This document shows positions 1 through 27,795 of a DNA stretch of 29,312 nt, piece by piece; the first letter of the stretch is position 1, and each line of letters starts with the position of its first letter. This stretch comes from a virus. Location: positions 1 to 29,312 of the IMG/VR virus record IMGVR_UViG_3300027822_000033; one strand, written 5' to 3'. The notes under the pieces were generated by a model. It was not told the DNA's origin. It made no database searches and worked only from the letters and a program-made list of their open reading frames with translations. The position numbers were made by a program, and so were the translations under genes.

Positions 1-444
1 ACTTATTCCACCAGATTCTTCTACCCAGTTATACTGTGGTGGTACAACTTTAGCTTCTATATTGCTAATTGTTTTTTGAACTTTTAATTTAAGCACTTCA
101 CCTTTTACATAAGGTTCAAGAATATTATTATATGTAAATTGCATAATTTTTGAGTTTATATAGTCATAGCGTATTTTATCCACACCACAAGAGCAATCAA
201 TCTTTTGTGATTGATCTACGAAGTATATTTCTATAATGGCCATTATTAAATATGACTTGTACACTTTGTTATTTTTCACTATTTCTACTACTAAGTTTTT
301 AAAGTCAGAATATTCAATAATACTCTTTATCTTGCTATTCTTTACAAGTTCTTTGACCTGTGCCCTTGTTCTTATACCCATATTATCATATTTACTGTAG
401 CTCCCCCAGTCCTCAGCACTTGTAGTTCCATATTCCATATTCAT
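1..444 (-). CDS. Hypothetical protein, 3' part beyond the window
   Basis: An open frame begins at an ATG whose first base is position 444. It overlaps the stop codon of the upstream M23 peptidase gene in an ATGA arrangement (441-444) and stays open for 148 codons to the left edge, so the C-terminus is missing. The visible part starts MNMEYGTTSAEDWG and is rich in Lys, Ile and Tyr. It has a hydrophobic stretch near residues 64-75 (YLIMAIIEIYFV) and a Cys-Ser-Cys at about 83-85. I recognise no family. The 4-bp overlap suggests translational coupling with the peptidase gene. The function is unknown. Confidence 0.7.
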   Translation of the reverse strand, partial: MNMEYGTTSAEDWGSYSKYDNMGIRTRAQVKELVKNSKIKSIIEYSDFKNLVVEIVKNNKVYKSYLIMAIIEIYFVDQSQKIDCSCGVDKIRYDYINSKIMQFTYNNILEPYVKGEVLKLKVQKTISNIEAKVVPPQYNWVEESGGIS

Positions 445-1067
445 AATTTAACCCACCTTAAAGGATCAACAAACACACCATCCGGTTTTTCTATAGATAA
501 GTGTAAATGTTCACCGGTTGACATTCCTGTGTTACCTTGTCTGCCTATAATACCCTTACTTCCAATTAGTTTGCCTTTACGATAAAACAAACCATCTTTT
601 AACACGTCACCCTCTTTGACATAAATAACTGACATGTGACCATAGCCACTTATCCAACCATCAGTGTGTTTTATTCTTACATATCCACCAAACAATTCAT
701 GTCCTTTATAATACCAATTAGGTACTGGCCAAACATCAAGTACTACTCCATCCTGTGCTATGGGTAATATCTCACAGTGCCAGTGGCCTACAATATCAAG
801 ACCTTTGTGTTTACCTGTTGTTACACCACCTGTGAAAGGGTTAAGTAACTCTCTATAACCAAATGGACTAGTCAATTTATCTAAATGGTGCATAGGACTA
901 GTATACTTGTACACACGTACTTTCTCTGCTTCTTCTTGTGCAAGTATAGAGTTAATAGTACCATGTAGCGCTTTAAGCTCTGCCTCTTGCTCTTTATCAC
1001 TTACCCAGTGACCTTGGATACTTGCTAAAGTAATTATAATTAACAATAGTACTAGTTCTTTGTTCAT
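441..1067 (-). CDS. Secreted M23-family (LytM-like) zinc metallopeptidase
   Basis: A 208-residue protein with an N-terminal hydrophobic export signal or membrane anchor (residues 4-18, ELVLLLIIITLASIQ) followed by an M23 peptidase domain. The zinc-binding motifs are clear: H87-K-G-L-D91, GYGH144 and H187-L-H189 in a TGEHLH context. The family cleaves peptide cross-links in peptidoglycan. The ribosome-binding site is AGGAG, about 8 nt before ATG 1067. It sits in a leftward operon of small unknown genes, not in the rightward lysis cassette some 25 kb away. A lysis endolysin that reaches the wall by the host export system is the simplest reading. A role in cell-wall remodelling or superinfection exclusion is also possible. 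The family call is firm and the role is inferred. Confidence 0.9.
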   Translation of the reverse strand: MNKELVLLLIIITLASIQGHWVSDKEQEAELKALHGTINSILAQEEAEKVRVYKYTSPMHHLDKLTSPFGYRELLNPFTGGVTTGKHKGLDIVGHWHCEILPIAQDGVVLDVWPVPNWYYKGHELFGGYVRIKHTDGWISGYGHMSVIYVKEGDVLKDGLFYRKGKLIGSKGIIGRQGNTGMSTGEHLHLSIEKPDGVFVDPLRWVKL

Positions 1068-1078
1068 TGCCCTGTCTC

Positions 1079-1300
1079 CTATGCCTCTAACACTATTTCT
1101 TTGATGAGGATTACTTCGTCACTATCATCAAAGTTCCATGTTGATCCATCTACAATAAACATTGCATTTCTTAGACCTTCAAACTCATTGTTTAATTTAA
1201 GCATTACTTCTACACTATCAGAATTGATGAACATTCCACCAGCTTTAATTTGACCAAATGATGTAATATGTTTTTCTACCGTTGTATGAATAGTTCTCAT
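1079..1300 (-). CDS. Small hypothetical protein (73 aa)
   Basis: A 73-residue acidic protein starting MRTIHTTVEKHITSFGQIKAG. The start ATG at 1300 overlaps the stop codon of the upstream gene (1297-1299), and the stop lies 11 nt before the peptidase start, so the gene is embedded in a tight leftward operon. The sequence is compact, with no signal peptide or membrane segment. The pattern GQIKAGGMFINSDS..EVMLKLN suggests a small beta-rich fold, but I recognise no family. There is no strong ribosome-binding site of its own, so translation is probably coupled to the upstream gene. Confidence 0.7.
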   Translation of the reverse strand: MRTIHTTVEKHITSFGQIKAGGMFINSDSVEVMLKLNNEFEGLRNAMFIVDGSTWNFDDSDEVILIKEIVLEA

Positions 1301-1506
1301 ATATCCAACCCAAACTCTGCCATTTCTACATCGCTAAACTCATGCCTATTTTGCATACGCTTTAAGCTAGCCTGTTCTCTTTTTATCTGGTCAAGTAGCT
1401 CTTGCCAATTGTCCACGGCCTCTTGCAATAGTTCTATATTCTCAGGATCTTCTAATACACCACCTGTTGTTATTGCGTAGTTTACATCATCTAATAAATC
1501 TTTCAT
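1297..1506 (-). CDS. Small acidic hypothetical protein (69 aa)
   Basis: I choose the ATG at 1506 (MKDLLDDVNYAITTGG), preceded by a good AAGGAG 7 nt upstream. The frame is open further up to 1575, but that extension only translates the GA-rich simple repeat as alternating Arg/Glu/Asp and is unlikely to be protein. The 69-residue product is strongly acidic at its N-terminus. Its middle is a predicted helix with coiled-coil character (ENIELLQEAVDNWQELLDQI). I do not recognise a family. It overlaps the next gene by 4 bp. Confidence 0.7.
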   Translation of the reverse strand: MKDLLDDVNYAITTGGVLEDPENIELLQEAVDNWQELLDQIKREQASLKRMQNRHEFSDVEMAEFGLDI

Positions 1507-1525
1507 TTCTATCTCCTTACCTCTA

Positions 1526-1562
1526 TCTGTGTCTGTCTCTCTGTCTCTCTCTCTCTCTCTCT
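1526..1562. repeat. CT/GA simple-sequence tract upstream of a small gene
   Basis: A run of CT dinucleotides with interspersed GT, ending in about nine consecutive CT units (1544-1562). Read leftward it is a polypurine GA tract lying 20-56 nt before the ATG at 1506, just upstream of its AAGGAG ribosome-binding site. It may form part of the mRNA leader or be a slippage-prone spacer. The same vocabulary recurs at 3403-3444. Confidence 0.8.
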
Positions 1563-1576
1563 GCCTCCCGTGCACT

Positions 1577-1873
1577 TTACAATATAAAGCCTAATGGCTC
1601 AATTACCTTTTCTAATTGTTTTTGAGTATCTAGTATATATACTTTTAATGGTGTTTCTTTGCGCTTGGCACAGTACAATTCAAAAGCACCGTCCGTTGTC
1701 AAATGATATTGATTACCATGATCATGTAATCTTAGTCTTGGATCAAGTCTATGTCCGTTTGGTTCTCTTGTTACTGTTGATTCTAACAAACTAGCTTGCT
1801 CTTCTGAGAGTTCAACGTATATGAACTTGCCATGTTTCCTTTGCCCTTTGCTCTTGGTGTAAAATACTGTCAT
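1577..1873 (-). CDS. Hypothetical protein (98 aa)
   Basis: A 98-residue protein starting MTVFYTKSKGQRKHGKFIYVEL, with AGAGG about 8 nt upstream of the ATG. The N-terminal third is basic. The rest is mixed, with a conserved-looking core LHDHGNQYHLTTDGAFELYCAKR that reads as paired beta strands. There is no signal peptide, membrane segment or Cys-based metal site. It sits between the helix-turn-helix gene and the small acidic gene of the same leftward operon. I do not recognise it. Confidence 0.75.
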   Translation of the reverse strand: MTVFYTKSKGQRKHGKFIYVELSEEQASLLESTVTREPNGHRLDPRLRLHDHGNQYHLTTDGAFELYCAKRKETPLKVYILDTQKQLEKVIEPLGFIL

Positions 1874-1887
1874 TTCTTTACCTCTTT

Positions 1888-2184
1888 TTAATTTATATGT
1901 TTTGTATACTCTTCTGCTTTTTCATTAAATCTTGTTACTAGGCCACTTGTCCCAGCTAAACAAAAATTATAGTCCGTTAATTCAGAAGCTAATATAACAA
2001 CTGTCCTTTTAATTTTTATAGCTTTTAATTTACCTGTTCTGTTACCTTTTAAAACTAATTTTCTAACTGCTTGCTCTGTGCGCTTTGTCAATTTTGCGAA
2101 AGTTGACACACTATAATATTTTGAACCATTTATGCTTATCACATTTTTGAGCGCTTGCTCTGTATCCATGCCCTTATTTACCAT
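1888..2184 (-). CDS. Helix-turn-helix DNA-binding protein (excisionase/MerR-like)
   Basis: I start the gene at ATG 2184 (MVNKGMDTEQALKNV), preceded by AGGAG with 7-nt spacing, which gives 98 residues. An upstream in-frame ATG at 2253 would add only repeat-derived Arg/Glu/Gln-rich sequence. ATG 2169 is an alternative. The segment YYSVSTFAKLTKRTEQAVRK followed by LKAIKIKRTVVILASELTDY has the layout of an excisionase or MerR-type winged helix-turn-helix: helix, tight turn, recognition helix with Arg/Lys, then a beta hairpin. It is the first gene of its leftward operon and lies next to the repeat-rich region 2254-3515, which could contain its targets. DNA binding is inferred from sequence shape only. 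Confidence 0.65.
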   Translation of the reverse strand: MVNKGMDTEQALKNVISINGSKYYSVSTFAKLTKRTEQAVRKLVLKGNRTGKLKAIKIKRTVVILASELTDYNFCLAGTSGLVTRFNEKAEEYTKHIN

Positions 2185-2262
2185 TCCCTCTCTCCTGTGC
2201 CCTGTGGCCTGTGCCATGGGCTCTCTCTGCCTTTCTGACTCTTGTCTCTCCATGTACCTATG

Positions 2263-2291
2263 ACCTTAACATTTCTATTAAATAATGTCAA
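2263..2291 (-). promoter_or_regulatory. Possible leftward promoter for the 2184 operon
   Basis: On the minus strand a perfect TTGACA (plus 2286-2291) is followed after 17 nt by TAAGGT (plus 2263-2268), a poor -10 match. The perfect -35 and its position before the first gene of the operon support it. The weak -10 lowers confidence and suggests an activator or a false hit. Confidence 0.35.
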
Positions 2292-2301
2292 GAGGTTTGA
2301 G

Positions 2302-2316
2302 TATACATTATGTATA
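2302..2316. promoter_or_regulatory. 15-bp palindrome, operator candidate
   Basis: TATACATTATGTATA has perfect 7-bp arms around one central base. It lies 10 bp upstream of the candidate leftward -35 element, where an operator or activator site would be expected. The base composition is AT-rich, so a chance palindrome is possible. Confidence 0.4.
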
Positions 2317-2378
2317 TTCATAAAAAAATATTTCTGATGGCTATTTAATATATGCTATAGGTCACAGGATAGTCAGTA

Positions 2379-2693
2379 ATGGAGATAATGGAGATATAGA
2401 ATGGAGCTAATAGAGATAATGGAGCTATAAAGTAGAGGTAATGGAGATAATGGAGATATAGAATGGAGATAATGGAGATAATAGAATGACACATATTGGA
2501 GATAATGGAGATAATTGAAATGGAGATAATGGAGATAATGGAGTCACTAATATTGGAGTTAATAGAGATAATGGAGGTGTTTATTAGTAATGATTCCTGT
2601 AATGGAGATAATGGAGATTTAAAAAGTGGAGATAATGGACATAATTATTTTGCTTGGTGGAGATAATGGAGATATTTTGAGAAATGGAGATAA
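2379..2693. repeat. TGGAGATAA repeat array (iteron-like)
   Basis: Twelve exact copies of GGAGATAA and several near copies (GGAGATAT, GGAGATTT, GGAGCTAA, AGAGATAA) lie within 315 bp, all in the same orientation. They usually come as pairs of directly abutting 9-bp units (TGGAGATAATGGAGATA) separated by 10-30 bp of AT-rich spacer. More copies lie outside the array: GGAGATAA at 3242, GGAGATAT near 3310 and 6255, and an inverted pair near 3170-3185. No convincing gene overlaps it, because frames through it only translate the repeat. Iterons for a replication initiator, or binding sites for a phage regulator, are the leading ideas. Confidence 0.9.
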
Positions 2694-3065
2694 ATTTTAT
2701 GTAACTTGTTACAGTGTAAGGAGTTACGGGGATTTGTGATTGGCTACTGGCCACAGGCTCGACTTGAAGTGCTATACATTTGAATGTACAGGGCCCTTGG
2801 CTATGGGCACAATCTATATACAAACATAAGAGTAACTTTGTATGATGAGCATTTTAGTAATGTAGGTGCTCAAGTCTAATGTAGTAGAGTTGAAGTAGAG
2901 TTATTGGATGTATTGGAGATCCTTGGCACTTTGTCAGTTTTTTTATATACAAAGTTGACACTCTTTTTTTGACCTTTTTTTGAGAGGCCTTAAAAAAAGT
3001 TGGATTTTTGCTATCATATTTGTGGTGTTGGTGACATCAGCCTGTACTTCTACGCTCTACTACAC

Positions 3066-3074
3066 TTATACACA
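3066..3074 (+). promoter_or_regulatory. DnaA-box-like 9-mer TTATACACA
   Basis: TTATACACA fits the relaxed bacterial DnaA box TTATNCACA. It is a single copy in a gene-free repeat-rich region, so it supports an origin there only weakly. Confidence 0.3.
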
Positions 3075-3130
3075 GGACACAGGATACATATCTCTGAAAT
3101 GACCCTTATAGGAGCTTTACAAAGTTGTTG

Positions 3131-3230
3131 ACAAAACATACAAAGTGAAATTGGAATGCCAACAAAAACCTCCAATATCTCCACTCAAAAATATACCTTA
3201 CTAAAATAGTCTTCATACAAAACATACAAA
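3131..3230 (+). repeat. 14-bp direct repeat ACAAAACATACAAA, two copies
   Basis: Exact copies at 3131-3144 and 3217-3230, 86 bp apart, inside the gene-free region. Their function is unknown. A 14-bp exact repeat is more than expected by chance even at this base composition, though AT-richness raises the background. Confidence 0.7.
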
Positions 3231-3402
3231 CTGTAGCGATTGGAGATAATAGAGATTTTAGAGAATGTTAAAATAAAAATAGCTTTTTTGGTCTAAATTA
3301 ACATTTTTATGGAGATATTGGAGATTTATTTCTACCCTTATTTTTGTCTAAATGTTCGTTTTTAGCTCAGCTCTGTTCTGTTAGTGTTCAGCCTTTATCC
3401 TT

Positions 3403-3444
3403 GTCTCTGTCTCTGTCTCTGTCTCTGTCTCTGTCTCTGTCTCT
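3403..3444. repeat. (GTCTCT)7 perfect hexamer microsatellite
   Basis: Seven perfect tandem GTCTCT units, then GGGGCACAGGGC. It lies just beyond the terminator of the leftward gene 3516-3941 and outside any credible gene. Such tracts are prone to slippage, so copy number may vary between isolates. A related CT tract lies at 1526-1562. Confidence 0.95.
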
Positions 3445-3458
3445 GGGGCACAGGGCAA

Positions 3459-3492
3459 ATAAAAAAGCCTACACTTACTATAAGTGTAGGCT
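3459..3492 (-). terminator. Strong rho-independent terminator of the 3516-3941 unit
   Basis: Read leftward, a perfect 12-bp stem AGCCTACACTTA/TAAGTGTAGGCT (plus 3466-3477 and 3481-3492, 3-nt loop) is followed at once by a run of six T (plus 3461-3466). It lies about 24 nt after the stop of the leftward gene at 3516 and should end its transcript. Confidence 0.92.
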
Positions 3493-3515
3493 CTGAATTA
3501 GTAGTTAATTACTAA

Positions 3516-3941
3516 TTATAATTCAGCATTTACAACTGGTACAAATCCTGTCCAGCCTCGGGGAGCATTTTCTCCTCTACCAGCAATAGAGTAATTGCCA
3601 TTTTCAAACTTAACCCATATTCTGTTTTCAGGTTCAGCTTTGATGAAATCTCTGATTTTTTTCTGCATTGTTGGCTGGCCATAGCCGAACTTTGTAAAGA
3701 TATCAATTGCAGAGACATCACCAGCAACCAGTAATTCTTTGAGTTCATTTGAAATCTGCATGCCCTGTGATCTTGCCCCCATGCCAGCAAGATATTTGAT
3801 TGCTTCCAGTACTTCACCAGTTAAGGCTTTTCCAGCTTCTGTTTCAAGATAAGCTTTGACAATTGCTTTCTTTGCTTTTCTTTTTTCTGTGAAAGCTGAG
3901 CCTTTTTTGTTCTCTTTTGTCTCTTCTTTTCCGAATGCCAT
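3516..3941 (-). CDS. Hypothetical protein in an isolated, heavily regulated unit (141 aa)
   Basis: A 141-residue protein starting MAFGKEETKENKKGSAFTEK, with a very basic N-terminal tail (residues 5-30), an acidic/helical middle, and a C-terminal part (TMQKKIRDFIKA...IWVKFENGNYSIAG) that could be a helix followed by a small beta wing. I recognise no family. DNA binding is a guess from the basic tail and wing-like end. The ribosome-binding site is AAGGA about 8 nt before the ATG. Its codons look less AT-rich than those of its neighbours, which may mean high expression or a different origin. It forms a single-gene unit with its own promoter, three inverted repeats at that promoter and a strong terminator. 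Confidence 0.8.
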   Translation of the reverse strand: MAFGKEETKENKKGSAFTEKRKAKKAIVKAYLETEAGKALTGEVLEAIKYLAGMGARSQGMQISNELKELLVAGDVSAIDIFTKFGYGQPTMQKKIRDFIKAEPENRIWVKFENGNYSIAGRGENAPRGWTGFVPVVNAEL

Positions 3942-3985
3942 TTTGTTTGTCCTTTGATGTTTTTGAACACCGTTTTTGATTTTTA

Positions 3986-4004
3986 GACTTGGTATACACC
4001 AGTC
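3986..4004. promoter_or_regulatory. 19-bp imperfect palindrome, operator candidate
   Basis: GACTTGGTATACACCAGTC pairs at seven of nine positions around its centre. It lies just downstream of the expected start of transcription of the 3941 gene (about +8 to +26), a common position for a repressor operator. Confidence 0.5.
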
Positions 4005-4012
4005 TTTAACTG

Positions 4013-4031
4013 TCTATGAGTCTATCATAGA
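4013..4031. promoter_or_regulatory. Inverted repeat TCTATGA/TCATAGA over the -10 element
   Basis: Perfect 7-bp arms (4013-4019, 4025-4031) with a 5-bp centre lie across the proposed -10 of the leftward promoter. This would suit a repressor site. Confidence 0.45.
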
Positions 4032-4047
4032 TACTTAATAGTGTCAA
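4019..4047 (-). promoter_or_regulatory. Leftward sigma70-type promoter for the 3941 gene
   Basis: On the minus strand TTGACA (plus 4042-4047), 17 nt, then TAGACT (plus 4019-4024). The -35 is perfect, the -10 matches four of six bases, and the spacing is ideal. The predicted start of transcription is near 4012, giving a leader of about 70 nt. Confidence 0.6.
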
Positions 4048-4069
4048 TGGAGTCCAAACCCATTGACAC
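4041..4069. promoter_or_regulatory. 10-bp inverted repeat carrying TTGACA in both arms
   Basis: GTGTCAATGG (4041-4050) and CCATTGACAC (4060-4069) are perfect arms around a 9-nt loop. The left arm contains the leftward -35. The right arm has a TTGACA facing right with no good -10. It is followed by a T-rich stretch on the plus strand. It could be an operator over the -35, or a hairpin acting on transcripts arriving from the 6035-4077 operon. Confidence 0.55.
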
Positions 4070-4076
4070 CATATTT

Positions 4077-4250
4077 TTAATTTTCTTGTTGATAAAAGCA
4101 AAACAACATCATTTCAATTAACAGTTTTGAGTCTACGTGATTGTACTGCTTTAGTTTACTGAAAACAGTATATTCACTATTTTTTATTTGACTATAAAAG
4201 TATGCTTTGTTACCATTGTTGTAGCTTTCTAATAAGCTATCTATGTTCAT
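4077..4250 (-). CDS. Small hypothetical protein (57 aa)
   Basis: This short frame starts at ATG 4250 (MNIDSLLESYNNGNKAYFYS) and ends with TAA at 4077. AAGGAAG lies about 6 nt before the start, and the start is 22 nt after the stop of the upstream gene. The product is 57 residues, rich in Tyr, Ser and Asn, and ends in a hydrophobic-aromatic stretch (LLIEMMLFCFYQQ). I recognise no family. The ribosome-binding site, operon position and codon use support a real gene, the last of its leftward operon. Confidence 0.7.
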   Translation of the reverse strand: MNIDSLLESYNNGNKAYFYSQIKNSEYTVFSKLKQYNHVDSKLLIEMMLFCFYQQEN

Positions 4251-4272
4251 TTTTTTCTTCCTTTATAATAGT

Positions 4273-4788
4273 TTAGTACGGTGTACCATTACTTAAAAAA
4301 GTGCAATGGTTATTTGTTATGGTTTCTACTATAGCTATATCACTTGTGTAATAATCATAACTATTATGTAAGCGTGTCAGAAAGCTATTTAACTTAGATT
4401 GTAGTAGACTATTGCACTTGTCATTATCAATATAATTTTTTGCTCTACTTCCACCGAAATATTGAGTCTCAATAGATATTCCTTCATAATCGATTATATT
4501 TCTAGCTTCCTTAGTTCTTAAGTCATAGCCTGAAGACTTTAGCAATAATGTAATGTCAATGACACTAGGCTTACCCATGTAGACATAATTTGATCGATCA
4601 AGATCGAAATAAAAACTATCACAAGTTACACCTATTTTTTCGAGTTCTATTATAAAGTCCTCATAGTCGAATGAATACCATTCATAATCTACATTGATGT
4701 CATAATTGTCTTGTATTATTTTTTGCTGTATTTCTTTAGACAATTCTTCAAGTTCATAAATTTTTTTTGTTTCTGTTATTACTTTCAT
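4273..4788 (-). CDS. Conserved phage-type hypothetical protein (171 aa)
   Basis: A 171-residue acidic, Tyr-rich protein. The N-terminus, YELEELSKEIQQKIIQDNYD followed by INVDYEWYSFDYEDFIIELEKIG, resembles a family of uncharacterised proteins I recall from many phages and prophages (helix, then a D-I-N-V-D-[YF]-x-W core, then a beta region with FYFDLDR). No function is established for it that I can name. AGGAG lies about 7 nt before the start. A 9-bp-stem hairpin lies between this gene and the one upstream. It is the fifth of six genes in its operon. Confidence 0.75.
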   Translation of the reverse strand: MKVITETKKIYELEELSKEIQQKIIQDNYDINVDYEWYSFDYEDFIIELEKIGVTCDSFYFDLDRSNYVYMGKPSVIDITLLLKSSGYDLRTKEARNIIDYEGISIETQYFGGSRAKNYIDNDKCNSLLQSKLNSFLTRLHNSYDYYTSDIAIVETITNNHCTFLSNGTPY

Positions 4789-4819
4789 CTTTCTCTCCTA
4801 TAAATTATTAAGATAACAA

Positions 4820-4847
4820 GGGGCACTGGACATATAGCCAGTGCCCT
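4820..4847 (-). terminator. Intercistronic hairpin, possible attenuator
   Basis: GGGCACTGG (4821-4829) pairs perfectly with CCAGTGCCC (4838-4846) around an 8-nt loop, in the 74-nt gap between two leftward genes. On the leftward transcript it is followed by CTTGTTATCTTAAT, U-rich but not a clean run, so partial termination or RNA processing is more likely than a full stop. Confidence 0.5.
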
Positions 4848-4862
4848 ATGTTCTATCAATAA

Positions 4863-5201
4863 TTAAAATAGCAAGTTGAGTTCGTTGATCCTATAAAATG
4901 GGACAATTTCGTTCTTTATACTGTCAGATACGAACCATTCAAAATCTTTCTGAAATACGTGTTGAGGTCTTCCATATAGTAAAGCGTTAAGCCTTGATTT
5001 TGTTGTTACTGACTTCCAGCCACCGTCATATAAGTATAAAGCATGGGTATGCTTTTTTATTTTAGCAATTAGATTGTTATATAAGTACACTTTTAAGTCG
5101 CTTTCATTATCGTATATTTCAACTTTTGTATTATCTTTTTTCCAATTCTTCCATTGATAAATCGCTTCTAACATTTCCTTTTCAATTATTCTCATTTTCA
5201 T
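4863..5201 (-). CDS. Hypothetical phage protein (112 aa)
   Basis: A 112-residue protein starting MKMRIIEKEMLEAIYQWKNW. The central part WKSVTTKSRLNALLYGRP followed by VFQKDFEWFV resembles, from memory, small early phage proteins in which a Trp-Lys-Ser-x-Thr-Thr-Lys-x-Arg-Leu-Asn core precedes a Gln/Trp-containing helix. No function is known to me. AGGAG sits close before the start. The stop is followed by the hairpin at 4820-4847. It is a member of the leftward early-type operon. Confidence 0.75.
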   Translation of the reverse strand: MKMRIIEKEMLEAIYQWKNWKKDNTKVEIYDNESDLKVYLYNNLIAKIKKHTHALYLYDGGWKSVTTKSRLNALLYGRPQHVFQKDFEWFVSDSIKNEIVPFYRINELNLLF

Positions 5202-5210
5202 TCTCTCCTT

Positions 5211-5681
5211 TCAATTTAGTTCTATATATCCGTTAAAGCTACACGCTTCACTCAATCCGTTTATTGTATCAAGTCTATCATTTTTAAACCTGTCAAAATA
5301 TCCATTGCCCTGTAAATGAATATCATCATTATTATAATATTTACTGTAGACAGCTTGTTCATCAAAATTGATTATGCCGTGATTAGAATAAACAAATTGT
5401 ATTGTTCTAACATCAATATTTGACTTTTTATACTGTTCACTGTCAATTCGATGTTCAGATATTCTTATTCTTCTAGGAAGTCCAAAGTATAACATATTAA
5501 CATTATGTAATACTACGCGTGTAAAATTGCTATTACTGCATTGTAAGTCATTCTTTTTAAAGTAGTACTTTTCTGTCCCCTTATTATCTTTATACAATAG
5601 GACTAATCCATATCTATAAAGATACCCTGTCAAATTGTAGTTTACATGTTTTTTTAATACTTGTTTAATGGTCATTTTCAT
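5211..5681 (-). CDS. Hypothetical protein (156 aa)
   Basis: A 156-residue Tyr/Asn-rich protein starting MKMTIKQVLKKHVNYNLTGY. The start at 5681 lies inside the end of the upstream 57-aa gene (17-bp overlap), with AGGAG about 5 nt before it. A second ATG two codons on is an alternative. The sequence has alternating strand-like segments (LVLLYKDNKGTEKYYFKK) and no signal peptide, metal site or recognisable enzyme motif. I do not recognise the family. Position suggests an early host-takeover function, which is only inference. Confidence 0.7.
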   Translation of the reverse strand: MKMTIKQVLKKHVNYNLTGYLYRYGLVLLYKDNKGTEKYYFKKNDLQCSNSNFTRVVLHNVNMLYFGLPRRIRISEHRIDSEQYKKSNIDVRTIQFVYSNHGIINFDEQAVYSKYYNNDDIHLQGNGYFDRFKNDRLDTINGLSEACSFNGYIELN

Positions 5682-5838
5682 TTTCTCCTTTTAATTTATC
5701 GAAATAACTATCATAACAGAAATCGTAGTCTTCTTCAAGCCATGTAATATCAGTATCTGATAATTTTAAATCATAATCTAAAATACTGATATGACTTGAT
5801 AAATTGTCAATTTTAATATTCAATTCATTAGTCTGCAT
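5665..5838 (-). CDS. Small acidic hypothetical protein (57 aa)
   Basis: A 57-residue frame from ATG 5838 (MQTNELNIKIDNLSSHISIL) to TAA at 5665. It is preceded by AAGGAGGTG, the strongest Shine-Dalgarno sequence in this operon. The product is very acidic in the middle (DTDITWLEEDYDFCYD) and ends GENENDH. It overlaps the next gene by 17 bp and starts 3 nt after the stop of the 5841-6035 gene. No family is recognised. Very acidic small early phage proteins sometimes act as DNA mimics or inhibitors, but nothing here shows that. Confidence 0.7.
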   Translation of the reverse strand: MQTNELNIKIDNLSSHISILDYDLKLSDTDITWLEEDYDFCYDSYFDKLKGENENDH

Positions 5839-5840
5839 TG

Positions 5841-6035
5841 TTAAAACACCTCCTTTATTTCATCATAGTATTCATTAAGAATTATCGAGTACTGTAATAG
5901 TAAAGCTATACTATGTTTCAGTACTGGATAATATTTTAATCTTAAATAGGGTTCATAAGCATTGATTTTTTTAATACTGTCAATCAATTGTATTGACCTA
6001 TTTTCCAGTCTAATTGCCTCATCAATTTGTATCAT
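5841..6035 (-). CDS. Small helical hypothetical protein (64 aa), first gene of operon
   Basis: A 64-residue protein starting MIQIDEAIRLENRSIQLIDS, with AAGGAG about 10 nt before ATG 6035. It is predominantly helical, with two helices joined at NAYEPYLRLKYYP, and has no membrane segment strong enough to call. It is the first gene of the leftward six-gene operon and has a leader of about 140 nt if the promoter at 6183-6211 is right. I do not recognise the family. Confidence 0.65.
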   Translation of the reverse strand: MIQIDEAIRLENRSIQLIDSIKKINAYEPYLRLKYYPVLKHSIALLLQYSIILNEYYDEIKEVF

Positions 6036-6724: not shown

Positions 6725-6781
6725 CATTTACCCACTATTTCACATTTAGAAATTGACACCTCAGTCCTCTCACAGGACCAA

Positions 6782-6837
6782 GGGCACAGGGAGTAGAACA
6801 CAGGGCACAGGGAGTAGAACACAGGGAATAGAACACA
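6782..6837 (+). repeat. 21-bp tandem repeat, two full copies plus a partial third
   Basis: A 21-bp unit beginning GGGCACAGGGAGTAGAACAC occurs at 6782-6802 and 6803-6823, followed by a degenerate copy GGGAATAGAACACA (6824-6837). It is the densest cluster of the CACAGG words scattered through the gene-free regions. Confidence 0.9.
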
Positions 6838-6882
6838 GGACATAGTATCAAGGGCACAGAACACAGATTATAGTATCGAGGT

Positions 6883-6989: not shown

Positions 6990-7063
6990 AATAAATAGCA
7001 CAGGCCACAGGCCACAGGCTCTAAAATAGGATAAAATTGGATCTGTGCCCTGTGTTCTGTGCC
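6990..7063. repeat. CACAGG words and long-range inverted partner
   Basis: Three CACAGG words occur in tandem at about 7000-7019. At 7050-7063 the sequence CTGTGTTCTGTGCC is the exact reverse complement of GGCACAGAACACAG at 6853-6866. The block lies immediately upstream of the terminase genes. Confidence 0.65.
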
Positions 7064-8821: not shown

Positions 8822-10254
8822 TGAGTTTATTAGGTACTTTATTTGGAACAAAGGCTGTTCAAGAGCGTTCAGTAATTCTTAATGTTACTCAGCCGAAAAC
8901 AGTTGAGAGAGACTTTACAAATGCAATTAAAACTAATAGAAAAATAGCCAGAGAAATATATCACAATGTAAATAAGAATTATGCACTTGCTGGACAATTA
9001 GTAAGACCAATAGTAAATAACAATGTTAATTTTATTGGTATTCCTACTTTATTTGGTAACAAGAAAAATATAAAAGTAATTGAAGATATTAACATTGATT
9101 ATAGAAGTATCCATAAATCAGTAGAAATTGATGGTTCAGTATTTGTATGGCCTCAATGGAGAGAAGATCATATTGAACTTGTGCAAATACCAGTGGACAT
9201 AGTACAAAGAACATTTATTGATCCTGTCACTAAAGAAGTTATAGGTTATAGACTAAAAGAAAATATTCAATATGACACTATAAAAGACATAGATCAAAGA
9301 GTAGAGATTATATGTACTATAACTAAATCTTATATAAAAACTGAAATATCTGGTTCGATCATTAAAACTATTACAGCGAAAAATGTCCTTGGTGTATTGC
9401 CTTTAGTTCATTTTAGCAATGATAAAGATATTCTGGAGTTATATGGTCATTCAGAGTTTGAAGCAATAGAACCACAGTTAAAGTTCTATCATAATTTAAC
9501 CTATGAAGCTGGATCTGCACAAAGCAGAGATGGACATCCTAAATTAAAAGTAACAACTAAGAATCCTAAGCAATGGATAGATAATAACTTTGGTGCTGGT
9601 GCATTTGATAATTTAGTTAAGAATGGTGGAACTATCTCTATGGGGGATAGAGACTTATTTATCAATGGTGAGGGTGATGATGTTAATTATTTGTACCTGA
9701 ACAAGACAACTGGGGATTATGGGGAATTGTCGGGTACAACCTTTATGAATATAGTAGAAGGTTCAGAAACACCAGAGATAAACTTTGGTGCCAATCTTGG
9801 TACTTCTTTGGCCAGTGTCAAAGAATATAGGCCAATTTGGATTAAGAAGATTGAAGCTAAGCAGTATGAAAGAACAGCACCTTGGATAAAGGTTTATGAA
9901 CTTATTTTAGCTTTACATAATTTTGTTAACTTCAAGTCACTTAAAAATGATATTGTAATAGTTTGGCCTACTCCTAACTTTGCTTCTGTTAAGGAACAAT
10001 CTGAAATAGTAAATGCTTTTGCAAAGGCTCTTGAAAAGTTAATAACTTCTAATGTACTTACTGAGGAAGAAGTATATAGGACAATAAAGGAACTTGATAT
10101 ATTTGAGCTTGAAGAAACTTATGAAAAGCATAAAAAAGTAATTGAAGAGGAGGTAAAGATACGTGAGGAGAAAGCTAAGAAAATCGCTGATGCAGCAGCA
10201 AAGAAGTCCGGTGACAAAGGAACAGAAAGTTCTAGCGAAAGTGACGATGAGTAG
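8821..10254 (+). CDS. Portal protein (SPP1 gp6-like)
   Basis: A 477-residue protein directly after the large terminase (TAATG overlap). The portal ring forms the DNA entry channel of the prohead and docks the terminase motor and head-tail connectors. The segment EIDGSVFVWPQWREDHIELV, then QIPVDIVQRTFIDPVTKEVI, is the typical clip/stem-leading region of this family. The long C-terminal stretch after about residue 395 is helical, acidic and coiled, ending in a Lys/Ala then Ser/Glu/Asp tail (SSSESDDE). No strong ribosome-binding site is visible, so translation is likely coupled to the terminase. Position, length and sequence agree. Confidence 0.88.
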   Translation: MSLLGTLFGTKAVQERSVILNVTQPKTVERDFTNAIKTNRKIAREIYHNVNKNYALAGQLVRPIVNNNVNFIGIPTLFGNKKNIKVIEDINIDYRSIHKSVEIDGSVFVWPQWREDHIELVQIPVDIVQRTFIDPVTKEVIGYRLKENIQYDTIKDIDQRVEIICTITKSYIKTEISGSIIKTITAKNVLGVLPLVHFSNDKDILELYGHSEFEAIEPQLKFYHNLTYEAGSAQSRDGHPKLKVTTKNPKQWIDNNFGAGAFDNLVKNGGTISMGDRDLFINGEGDDVNYLYLNKTTGDYGELSGTTFMNIVEGSETPEINFGANLGTSLASVKEYRPIWIKKIEAKQYERTAPWIKVYELILALHNFVNFKSLKNDIVIVWPTPNFASVKEQSEIVNAFAKALEKLITSNVLTEEEVYRTIKELDIFELEETYEKHKKVIEEEVKIREEKAKKIADAAAKKSGDKGTESSSESDDE

Positions 10255-14297: not shown

Positions 14298-14683
14298 CAA
14301 TACAATTTGTTATTAACGATTCATTAGGAGATTACTTTAGGGAACAGTTTAAACTAAGAGAAAAGGAGTCATTAGCTATATTTCATTATTACAAGGTAGA
14401 AGTTCTTAAATGGTTTCAAATGGTACAGGGTGGAGCACCATCAGGTACCACAGGTAGATTTTGGACAAATCATACTTTTAAAGCTGTTGAAGCTTTATTT
14501 ACAGAAGTATTAGCAAATAGAAGTGAGATAATTTTAAACATAGAATATAACACTGGACATGCTGATTATGTTAAGTATCTTGAAGAAGCACATAATCTTA
14601 GATTTGCAGCTTTACCTACTATACTTAATAAGTTTGCTGATGCTCTAATAAGAGATTTAAAAATGCTTTATGGAGATACTTAA
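14294..14683 (+). CDS. HK97 gp10-like tail completion/neck protein
   Basis: A 129-residue protein with the hallmark layout of the HK97 gp10 family: an N-terminal helix (GDYFREQFKLREKESLAIFHY), a glycine/Thr turn before an aromatic stretch (TGRFWTNHTFKA), the strand with HADYVKYLEEAHN, and a terminal helix (FADALIRDLKMLYG). Family members form the tail terminator/neck layer or act in tail-to-head joining. It overlaps the previous gene by 4 bp and abuts the tail terminator gene by one base. The assignment is one of the firmer ones in this stretch. Confidence 0.78.
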   Translation: MTIQFVINDSLGDYFREQFKLREKESLAIFHYYKVEVLKWFQMVQGGAPSGTTGRFWTNHTFKAVEALFTEVLANRSEIILNIEYNTGHADYVKYLEEAHNLRFAALPTILNKFADALIRDLKMLYGDT

Positions 14684-27077: not shown

Positions 27078-27341
27078 ATGGTGATAACAGAGAAAACTAA
27101 TTTTAAAATAAGTATTGCTACGTTTGTAACCGTTTTAATATTTATTGTTTCAACAGTTTATCAAACAGCAGTCTGGAAAACTGAAATGGAAAAGAATGTA
27201 GAGCAGAATCATATAGAGATACTGAAGACAGAAGAGATCCAGAATCTTGTTGTTATAAAACAGTCTCAACAAAATGCTGTGTTTGCAGAGATAAAGACAG
27301 ACCTTAGATGGATAAGAGCGAAACTTGAGGAGATAAAATAA
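27078..27341 (+). CDS. Small membrane protein with coiled coil (87 aa)
   Basis: An 87-residue protein starting MVITEKTNFKISIATFVTVL, with AAGGAG upstream. One clear transmembrane segment (residues about 10-30, ISIATFVTVLIFIVSTVYQ) is followed by a long charged helix (EKNVEQNHIEILKTEEIQNL to DLRWIRAKLEEIK). The layout resembles small phage membrane proteins of the holin/hemolysin-accessory kind. No enzyme motif is present. It sits between the lipase and the cysteine-peptidase-like gene in the lysis cassette. It may be an anti-holin, a pinholin-like partner or an accessory membrane factor; none of these is shown by the sequence. Confidence 0.65.
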   Translation: MVITEKTNFKISIATFVTVLIFIVSTVYQTAVWKTEMEKNVEQNHIEILKTEEIQNLVVIKQSQQNAVFAEIKTDLRWIRAKLEEIK

Positions 27342-27342
27342 C

Positions 27343-27795
27343 GTGTTGTTCCAAACTGATCCAGAGCTACAATTTAATGCAAAATCTGATTGCTATTTAT
27401 TTGATATATTGAAGATTCATGAACTTGTTGGTAAGCATGAGTTTACCAGAGAACAAATAAGAGATATTAGAAGAGTATCAGTTAGAACTAATTTCATGGG
27501 AAAGGATGGTTACCTAAATGCAAAGGGTATCTCAGGTATTTCAATGGTTGCTTCGGGGCTTACAGGATATAATGTATACATGCGTAGAGTGGGGAGCAAT
27601 AGTAACTATAATTACATTATTGCTGAGTATCAGCGGAGGATTGATAGTAGCAGCATGGTTGATCACTTCGTTTTGGCTAACTTTGAACAACCTAATAAGG
27701 TAGTAGATTATGATCCTTGGAGTTTCTTTGGAAGTAGAACAGTAAGAGAAGGAAACATTGTAGGTTTCCGTTACATTTTTGCAGAGGCGGTATGA
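27343..27795 (+). CDS. Papain/C39-like cysteine peptidase-like protein, possible endolysin
   Basis: The GTG start at 27343 has GAGGAG upstream. The 150-residue product begins MLFQTDPELQFNAKSDCYLF, with C17 in an early helix, H108 in DHFVLANFEQPNKVV, and D122/D124 in VDYDPW. A Cys-helix, then His-Phe-Val strand, then Asp-Pro is the layout of C39-like/papain-fold peptidases. There is no export signal. The length and style recall, unverified, a DUF261-type family I associate with spirochaetes. The slot just before a holin is where endolysins sit, so wall cleavage is plausible. The catalytic role is inferred. A frame inside this gene (27518) is listed in the findings. Confidence 0.6.
   Translation: MLFQTDPELQFNAKSDCYLFDILKIHELVGKHEFTREQIRDIRRVSVRTNFMGKDGYLNAKGISGISMVASGLTGYNVYMRRVGSNSNYNYIIAEYQRRIDSSSMVDHFVLANFEQPNKVVDYDPWSFFGSRTVREGNIVGFRYIFAEAV

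Follow-up and report, generated by a model that had tools for sequence, protein, structure and literature searches.

Iteron origins of plasmids and phages are built from repeat units of about 17–22 bp. In Streptomyces, BldC is reported to bind one 9-bp direct repeat per protomer, with the protomers arranged head to tail in filaments, at sites that vary in their number of repeats (PMC5859096). The excisionases/RDFs, among them Pukovnik Xis, lambda Xis and RdfS, are small filament-forming proteins of phages or ICEs (PMC11963761).

The locus described here shows a known kind of array geometry in a new setting. It lies in a virus record of 29,312 bases, referred to below in its entirety as the window, which carries the TerL (terminase large subunit) and portal genes. 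Like the BldC system, it combines 9-bp direct repeats with a small predicted winged helix-turn-helix (wHTH) protein, encoded beside the gap that holds them. Unlike the BldC system, it is a phage array of 26 units in 314 bp, the protein shares only 13–14% identity with BldC over 50–55 aligned residues, and binding is here a proposal. The predicted fold is also that of these excisionases/RDFs, but four records of this phage group, which may be fragments, lack PF00589. A literature search on the letters of the repeat gave nothing phage-related by title among the matches listed.

Structure of the array

A dense array had been reported in the preliminary description, and the counts bear this out, with 12 exact copies of GGAGATAA within 2381–2693 and 26 recognisable units in all (read by eye, two of the 26 being weak). 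Over the whole window, GGAGATAA occurs exactly 15 times, always on the + strand, against 1.12 expected, and none of 100 shuffles reached 15. Among 8-mers counted per 315-nt stretch, TGGAGATA is the commonest: the stretch from 2380 has 15 copies of it, and no 8-mer exceeds 7 in any of 100 first-order shuffles. As a DNA feature, the array is genuine, far from random, and conserved in part.

The units abut in groups of two or three, separated by spacers of 4, 6, 9, 13 and 22 nt, and Tandem Repeats Finder returned a period of 9 and a composite period of 31. The step from group to group is about 31–33 bp in the first half of the array, i.e., three DNA turns. Column counts over the 26 units are T26 G22 G26 A26 G24 A19 T24 A24 A18; positions 1, 3, and 4 are invariant, position 5 deviates in two units and position 2 in four. 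A CRISPR-like reading was ruled out by the 9-bp unit size and the irregular spacers. The region had also been called gene-free, a fair description, as the sole open reading frame of at least 60 aa inside the array is 2584–2823 on the − strand, with a TTG start.

The mean identity of the units is 0.82, the four 6-nt spacers reach 0.42 against 0.34 by chance, and the three 4-nt spacers 67%. Because the units are much more alike than the near-chance 6-nt spacers, they look constrained. This difference is the opposite of what recent block copying would leave, and it bears on a neutral origin of the array, in which slippage or unequal exchange multiplied a short site into a long array with no role of its own. 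We regard such an origin as improbable, even though the blocks at 2376 and 2438, 62 bp apart, share 94% identity over 48 nt, which is a mark of block duplication.

Genomic setting

The array is found within a 1.3-kb non-coding gap (2185–3515), 195–510 bp upstream of the start codon of the HTH gene that borders the gap, as had been claimed, on one side; the gene at 3516–3941 borders it on the other. The features of the region are collected in Table 1. The − strand carries the left-arm open reading frames that have relatives (441 to 6035), and the + strand carries the structural genes, from 7080 onwards. At the place matching the candidate promoter of the HTH gene, the closest relative (G001, see below) has TTGACA-17-TATATT, also read by eye.

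Table 1. Positions of the repeats, genes and signals in and around the gap
Feature	Position	Strand	Remark
The array itself: 26 units of 9 bp (TGGAGATAA as consensus), grouped in abutting twos and threes	2380–2693	+	
Unit starts, first half	2380, 2389, 2402, 2411, 2420, 2433, 2442, 2451, 2464, 2473, 2482, 2497, 2506		
Unit starts, second half	2521, 2530, 2539, 2554, 2563, 2572, 2603, 2612, 2627, 2636, 2658, 2667, 2685		
98-aa HTH protein (ATG at 2184) with a predicted winged HTH of Xis/BldC/MerR type	1888–2184	−	
Possible HTH-gene promoter, TTGACA, 17 nt, TAAGGT	2263–2291	−	By eye, below scan threshold
Second TACAAA-type 9-bp pair, one mismatch	3130–3144	+	86 bp from the first
Inverted pair TGGAGATAT TGGAGGTTT, as read on the − strand	3166–3183	−	
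Second 9-bp-phased motif, TACAAA-ACA-TACAAA, exact	3216–3230	+	Core common to relatives
Outlying pair TGGAGATAA TAGAGATTT	3241–3258	+	
Outlying pair TGGAGATAT TGGAGATTT	3310–3327	+	About 190 bp from the end of the 3516–3941 gene
Terminator-like hairpin 3' of the 141-aa gene, at the gap edge	3464–3494	−	
141-aa protein, possibly winged helix, alternative binder	3516–3941	−	Low-confidence model

No near DNA relative of window positions 1–25000 was found in the phages collection. Among named phages, the identity of TerL is about 32% at best, and a scan of genome contigs gave TerL matches of only 32–39%, nearly all in alphaproteobacterial MAGs. Window 4863–5201 and L073:12134–13661 gave matches to the Kyanoviridae Gp96 family and to Pam3 gp33- and gp34-like families. 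These matches hint weakly at a cyanophage link, whereas the distant TerL matches point to alphaproteobacterial MAGs instead. As a separate observation, CACAGG and GGGCACAGGGC words and a perfect TGTCTC run recur between genes of the window (6781–6881, 6999–7019, 3402–3445, and 2196–2222), and G001 has CAGAGAGA runs in a gap matching these.

A 9-bp rhythm in related phages

Relatives were IMG/VR viral contigs with the same gene order, found via TerL, portal and the two flanking proteins. The closest is G001 (TerL 79%, 141-aa protein 60%, HTH protein 54%); G002, G003, and G004 follow, G005–G008 are more distant, and G009 is too short for the gap. The gap between the 141-aa gene and the HTH gene is kept in the window and in G001–G004, with the HTH gene directly next in the window, G001, and G002, one 262-aa open reading frame between in G004 and three small ones in G003. 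The repeats of G005, G006, and G008 are found on the upstream side of the 141-aa gene instead, and in two of these, G005 and G006, kilobases separate them from the HTH gene, with the 141-aa gene still adjoining the repeats.

A blind tandem scan of eight gaps (window, G001–G006, and G008) gave 28 clusters of period 9 against 1.46 expected, a number that none of 200 shuffles reached. Since the 9-bp period was first noticed in the window, the sum without it is also given: 18 clusters against 1.32 expected, again reached by none of 200 shuffles. Period 9 is the most over-represented in the gaps of these seven relatives, where period 10 gave 6 clusters against 0.47 expected and period 8 gave 13 against 4.0. 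Period 7 is over-represented about twofold in the same gaps (23 clusters against 11.2 expected). At least one period-9 cluster is present in seven of the eight gaps, the miss being G006, where the core search shows a 9-bp triple. Over five contigs, period-9 clusters are densest in the gap, at 4.10 per kb, compared with 0.88 per kb in the divergent gap and 0.36 per kb elsewhere.

The letters repeated at this period differ between phages. All six exact TACAAA pairs at period 9 in the window, G001, G003, and G004 are in the gap; G002 has none, and its three one-mismatch pairs are all in the gap. Another 11 pairs with one mismatch occur in the other four contigs, 4 of them in the gap. G005 and G008 share the core GACTAC, and G006 and G007 the core TGTCAC; all three cores were picked after the gaps had been viewed, the blind scan being independent of them. 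Opposing 9-bp sets, 75–81 bp apart, are found in six of nine records (G001, G002, G003, G004, G007, and G008), and the core search showed none in G005 and G006. The two TACAAA sets of the window have the same orientation and are 86 bp apart.

TGGAG itself occurs 28 times in the gap of the window, 10 times in that of G001, once each in G002 and G004, and not in G003. The window has 11 TGGAG pairs at period 9, all but one of them in the gap; both pairs of G001 are in the gap as well, and G002–G004 have none. No such pairs at periods 7, 8, 10, 11, or 12 were found anywhere in the contigs compared. None of the contigs holding the exact 18-mer (L004–L013) has an array like this one or more than four copies of TGGAGATA. 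The long TGGAGATAA block is an expansion found in this record only, while the 9-bp head-to-tail step is conserved though the letters differ between phages. Conservation of the repeats in relatives had been set beforehand as a test, and the outcome is split, the TGGAGATAA expansion being absent and the 9-bp arrangement kept. For a neutral duplication, the restriction of the array to one record and the drop from 28 to 10 TGGAG in the closest relative are what would be expected; the presence in relatives of 9-bp tandem sets with different letters, located in the same gap, argues against it.

Outlying copies and a possible RNA reading

Outlying copies had been noted, and these are present: the copy at 3242 is exact, those at 3310 and 6253 are close matches, and an inverted pair lies at 3183–3166. 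The outlying pairs hold the 9-bp step in both orientations, a further point against neutral duplication. G001 has a pair oriented like that at 3310, about 215–225 bp from the end of its homologue of the 3516–3941 gene, and its two TGGAG pairs are in opposite orientations, as are the outlying pairs of the window. Exact GGAGATAA at 27329 and 27993 is in the ribosome-binding-site position of the open reading frames at 27343 and 28005.

The use of GGAGATA as a ribosome-binding site in this genome (upstream of the open reading frames at 14683, 27343, and 28005) gives some footing to a reading at the RNA level, in which the + strand would be a stacked ribosome-binding-site decoy or the − strand would carry anti-SD-like units, and the predictions give weak structure for either strand of the array, which would therefore be accessible. 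We nevertheless consider it very unlikely. The SD-like strand is antisense to the operon, because the left-arm open reading frames with relatives are on the − strand; promoter-like sites number 11, against 9.3 in shuffles (sd 2.8); TGGAG pairs are found in both orientations in the window and G001; and the core repeated at the 9-bp rhythm in the other relatives has no GGAG. The earlier suggestion of stacked ribosome sites or a pairing RNA is thus not upheld, and neither strand folds better than shuffles. At the gathering score, Rfam gave no family in the window, L014, L015, L016, or L018.

Candidate binding proteins

The AlphaFold model of the HTH protein (mean pLDDT 86.7) has the wHTH order of elements. 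Its top structural neighbours are Pukovnik Xis (Z 6.8), BldC (6.7 and 6.4), and SoxR (5.2), followed by RdfS (5.0) and lambda Xis (4.4), with RacA also among the neighbours, all of them below the safe-match level, as Z values under 8 may mean merely a common arrangement. BldC had been proposed from the 9-bp step before the structural search. BldC-family proteins are MerR-like, with one small wHTH domain and no coiled coil. Foldseek gave E-values of 0.9 or worse, and a viral fold library gave rows named HTH, Xis, Cox, and MerR, none with an E-value below 0.001. Against HTH_17 the protein scores 16.9 bits, below the Pfam cut-off of 27, as does the family in four of five members; it is the sole HTH_17-like match in the window, G002, and G004, G001 having one extra weak match. 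Eight of 10 records encode the protein; the two in which it was not found are contigs of 5.7 and 12 kb. A PDB-sequence profile search with it returned no HTH regulator. The BldC consensus AATTXXXXC fits most units in some register; a random AT-rich 9-mer often does too, and the fit was not counted.

The model of the 141-aa protein (pLDDT 57.5) consists of helices followed by a two-strand hairpin, and was too poor for a fold search. Profile searches of the PDB gave nothing useful for either protein, and neither had a match above the Pfam cut-off or in PHROGs at 0.01. The 141-aa gene adjoins the 9-bp repeats in the relatives examined, and since it neighbours them in both gene arrangements, its product is a serious alternative binder. 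TGGAG and TACAAA may also have different binders, as TGGAG pairs are absent from G002–G004 despite their similar HTH proteins.

On balance, we favour a reading in which the array offers binding sites for protein within a control region of the phage and a small wHTH protein builds a nucleoprotein filament on them. Each 9-bp unit would be the candidate site of one subunit, most likely of the wHTH protein encoded at 1888–2184, arranged head to tail like BldC and Xis. The abutting twos and threes would act as cooperative nuclei from which the filament would spread over about 310 bp, and groups about 31–33 bp apart, as in the first half of the array, would share one face of the DNA. The filament would most likely set the level of the HTH protein's own operon, the simplest role given the position of the array upstream of its start codon, with the organisation of a replication origin in the gap as a possible further role. 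The preliminary description had offered a replication origin or a regulator-binding array; the regulator half is the better supported, as the 9-bp rhythm recurs in the gap of relatives and the top matches of the predicted HTH fold include direct-repeat binders, and the origin half is possible, with no support from skew or DnaA boxes.

If binding is confirmed, 26 units of 9 bp, all pointing the same way, would make up a natural DNA track on which the cooperativity and direction of a filament-forming wHTH protein could be measured. Head-to-tail filaments of wHTH proteins would then reach beyond excision and development, into the control centre of phages with no detected integrase. A 9-bp period within a fixed gene slot is a search key independent of sequence. 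More speculatively, and with considerable doubt, these undescribed phages may form a family whose centre for replication or early-gene control is made of opposing 9-bp head-to-tail sets spaced by about 80 bp. A BldC/Xis-like protein would bind these as a genome organiser or initiator, with no integrase; the recognised letters would change between phages while the 9-bp step stays, and here a second, TGGAG-type site would have been expanded to 26 units.

An excision site was rejected as an explanation, the tyrosine integrase PF00589 being found in none of four records (G000, G001, G002, and G004) and in 14 of 14 control genomes, in a search for tyrosine integrases only, over records that may be fragments. 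A type I partition centromere was rejected likewise, with the ParA-type ATPase PF13614 in none of the four records and in 14 of 14 control genomes, in a search confined to ParA-type motors.

The gap as a possible replication origin

Several direct repeats, opposing sets, a non-coding slot and a nearby DNA-binding gene are traits shared with iteron origins. The units could then be iterons bound by an initiator and the gap the phage origin, opened by replication genes that these phages carry, a possibility that we judge rather unlikely. It draws on the long, repeat-rich non-coding gap in an otherwise packed genome, on the opposing 9-bp sets in six of the nine records, on a 56-nt inverted repeat in the gap of G002, and on the gene content of G001, which includes a family A DNA polymerase, an AEP primase, an SSB, and a UvrD helicase; it is because of this polymerase, primase, SSB, and helicases that an origin in the gap stays in consideration. 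Unlike an iteron origin, however, the locus has a 9-bp unit and no initiator assigned, its two gap neighbours being without a match above the Pfam cut-off. The cumulative GC skew turns at the divergent transcription boundary, outside the gap (6126 in the window, 18914 in G001, 29741 in G002, and 13162 in G004), a signal confounded by gene direction, and the AT content of the gap is within 0.03 of that of the whole contig in all four.

The DnaA-box-like 9-mer reported earlier is a single TTATACACA at 3066. DnaA boxes have the sequence TTATCCACA and are not usually abutting. The unit complement, TTATCTCCA, matches this box at 7 of 9 positions, which, together with the good box at 3066, could suggest that host DnaA loads on the units as a low-affinity array. 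Such a role is extremely improbable: abutting units do not have the usual box spacing, the shared TACAAA core is unlike a DnaA box, and a search for TTWTNCACA found one box each in the gaps of the window and G001 and none in those of G002, G003, and G004, so that the cluster of boxes of a DnaA-dependent origin was not found in any of these five gaps.

Additional repeats in the contigs compared

In G002, the inverted repeat (L035:5024–5079 and 5288–5343) is 88% complementary, with 208 nt between its arms, which include TTGTATATA-type 9-bp sets. A further repeat type, TGATCGTTT, occurs in the gap of G001 both as an inverted pair and as a distant copy (L027:8895–8942 and 9535–9553). A 74-aa open reading frame inside an inverted repeat of 21–24 nt, 95–96% complementary, is found at L015:1878–2228 and L016:7172–7531; the non-coding stretch before it, which has no Rfam match at the gathering score, is conserved and structured-looking. 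Finally, the first and last 1000 bases of G001 share words of at least 60 bases, which suggests that its genome is circular or terminally redundant.
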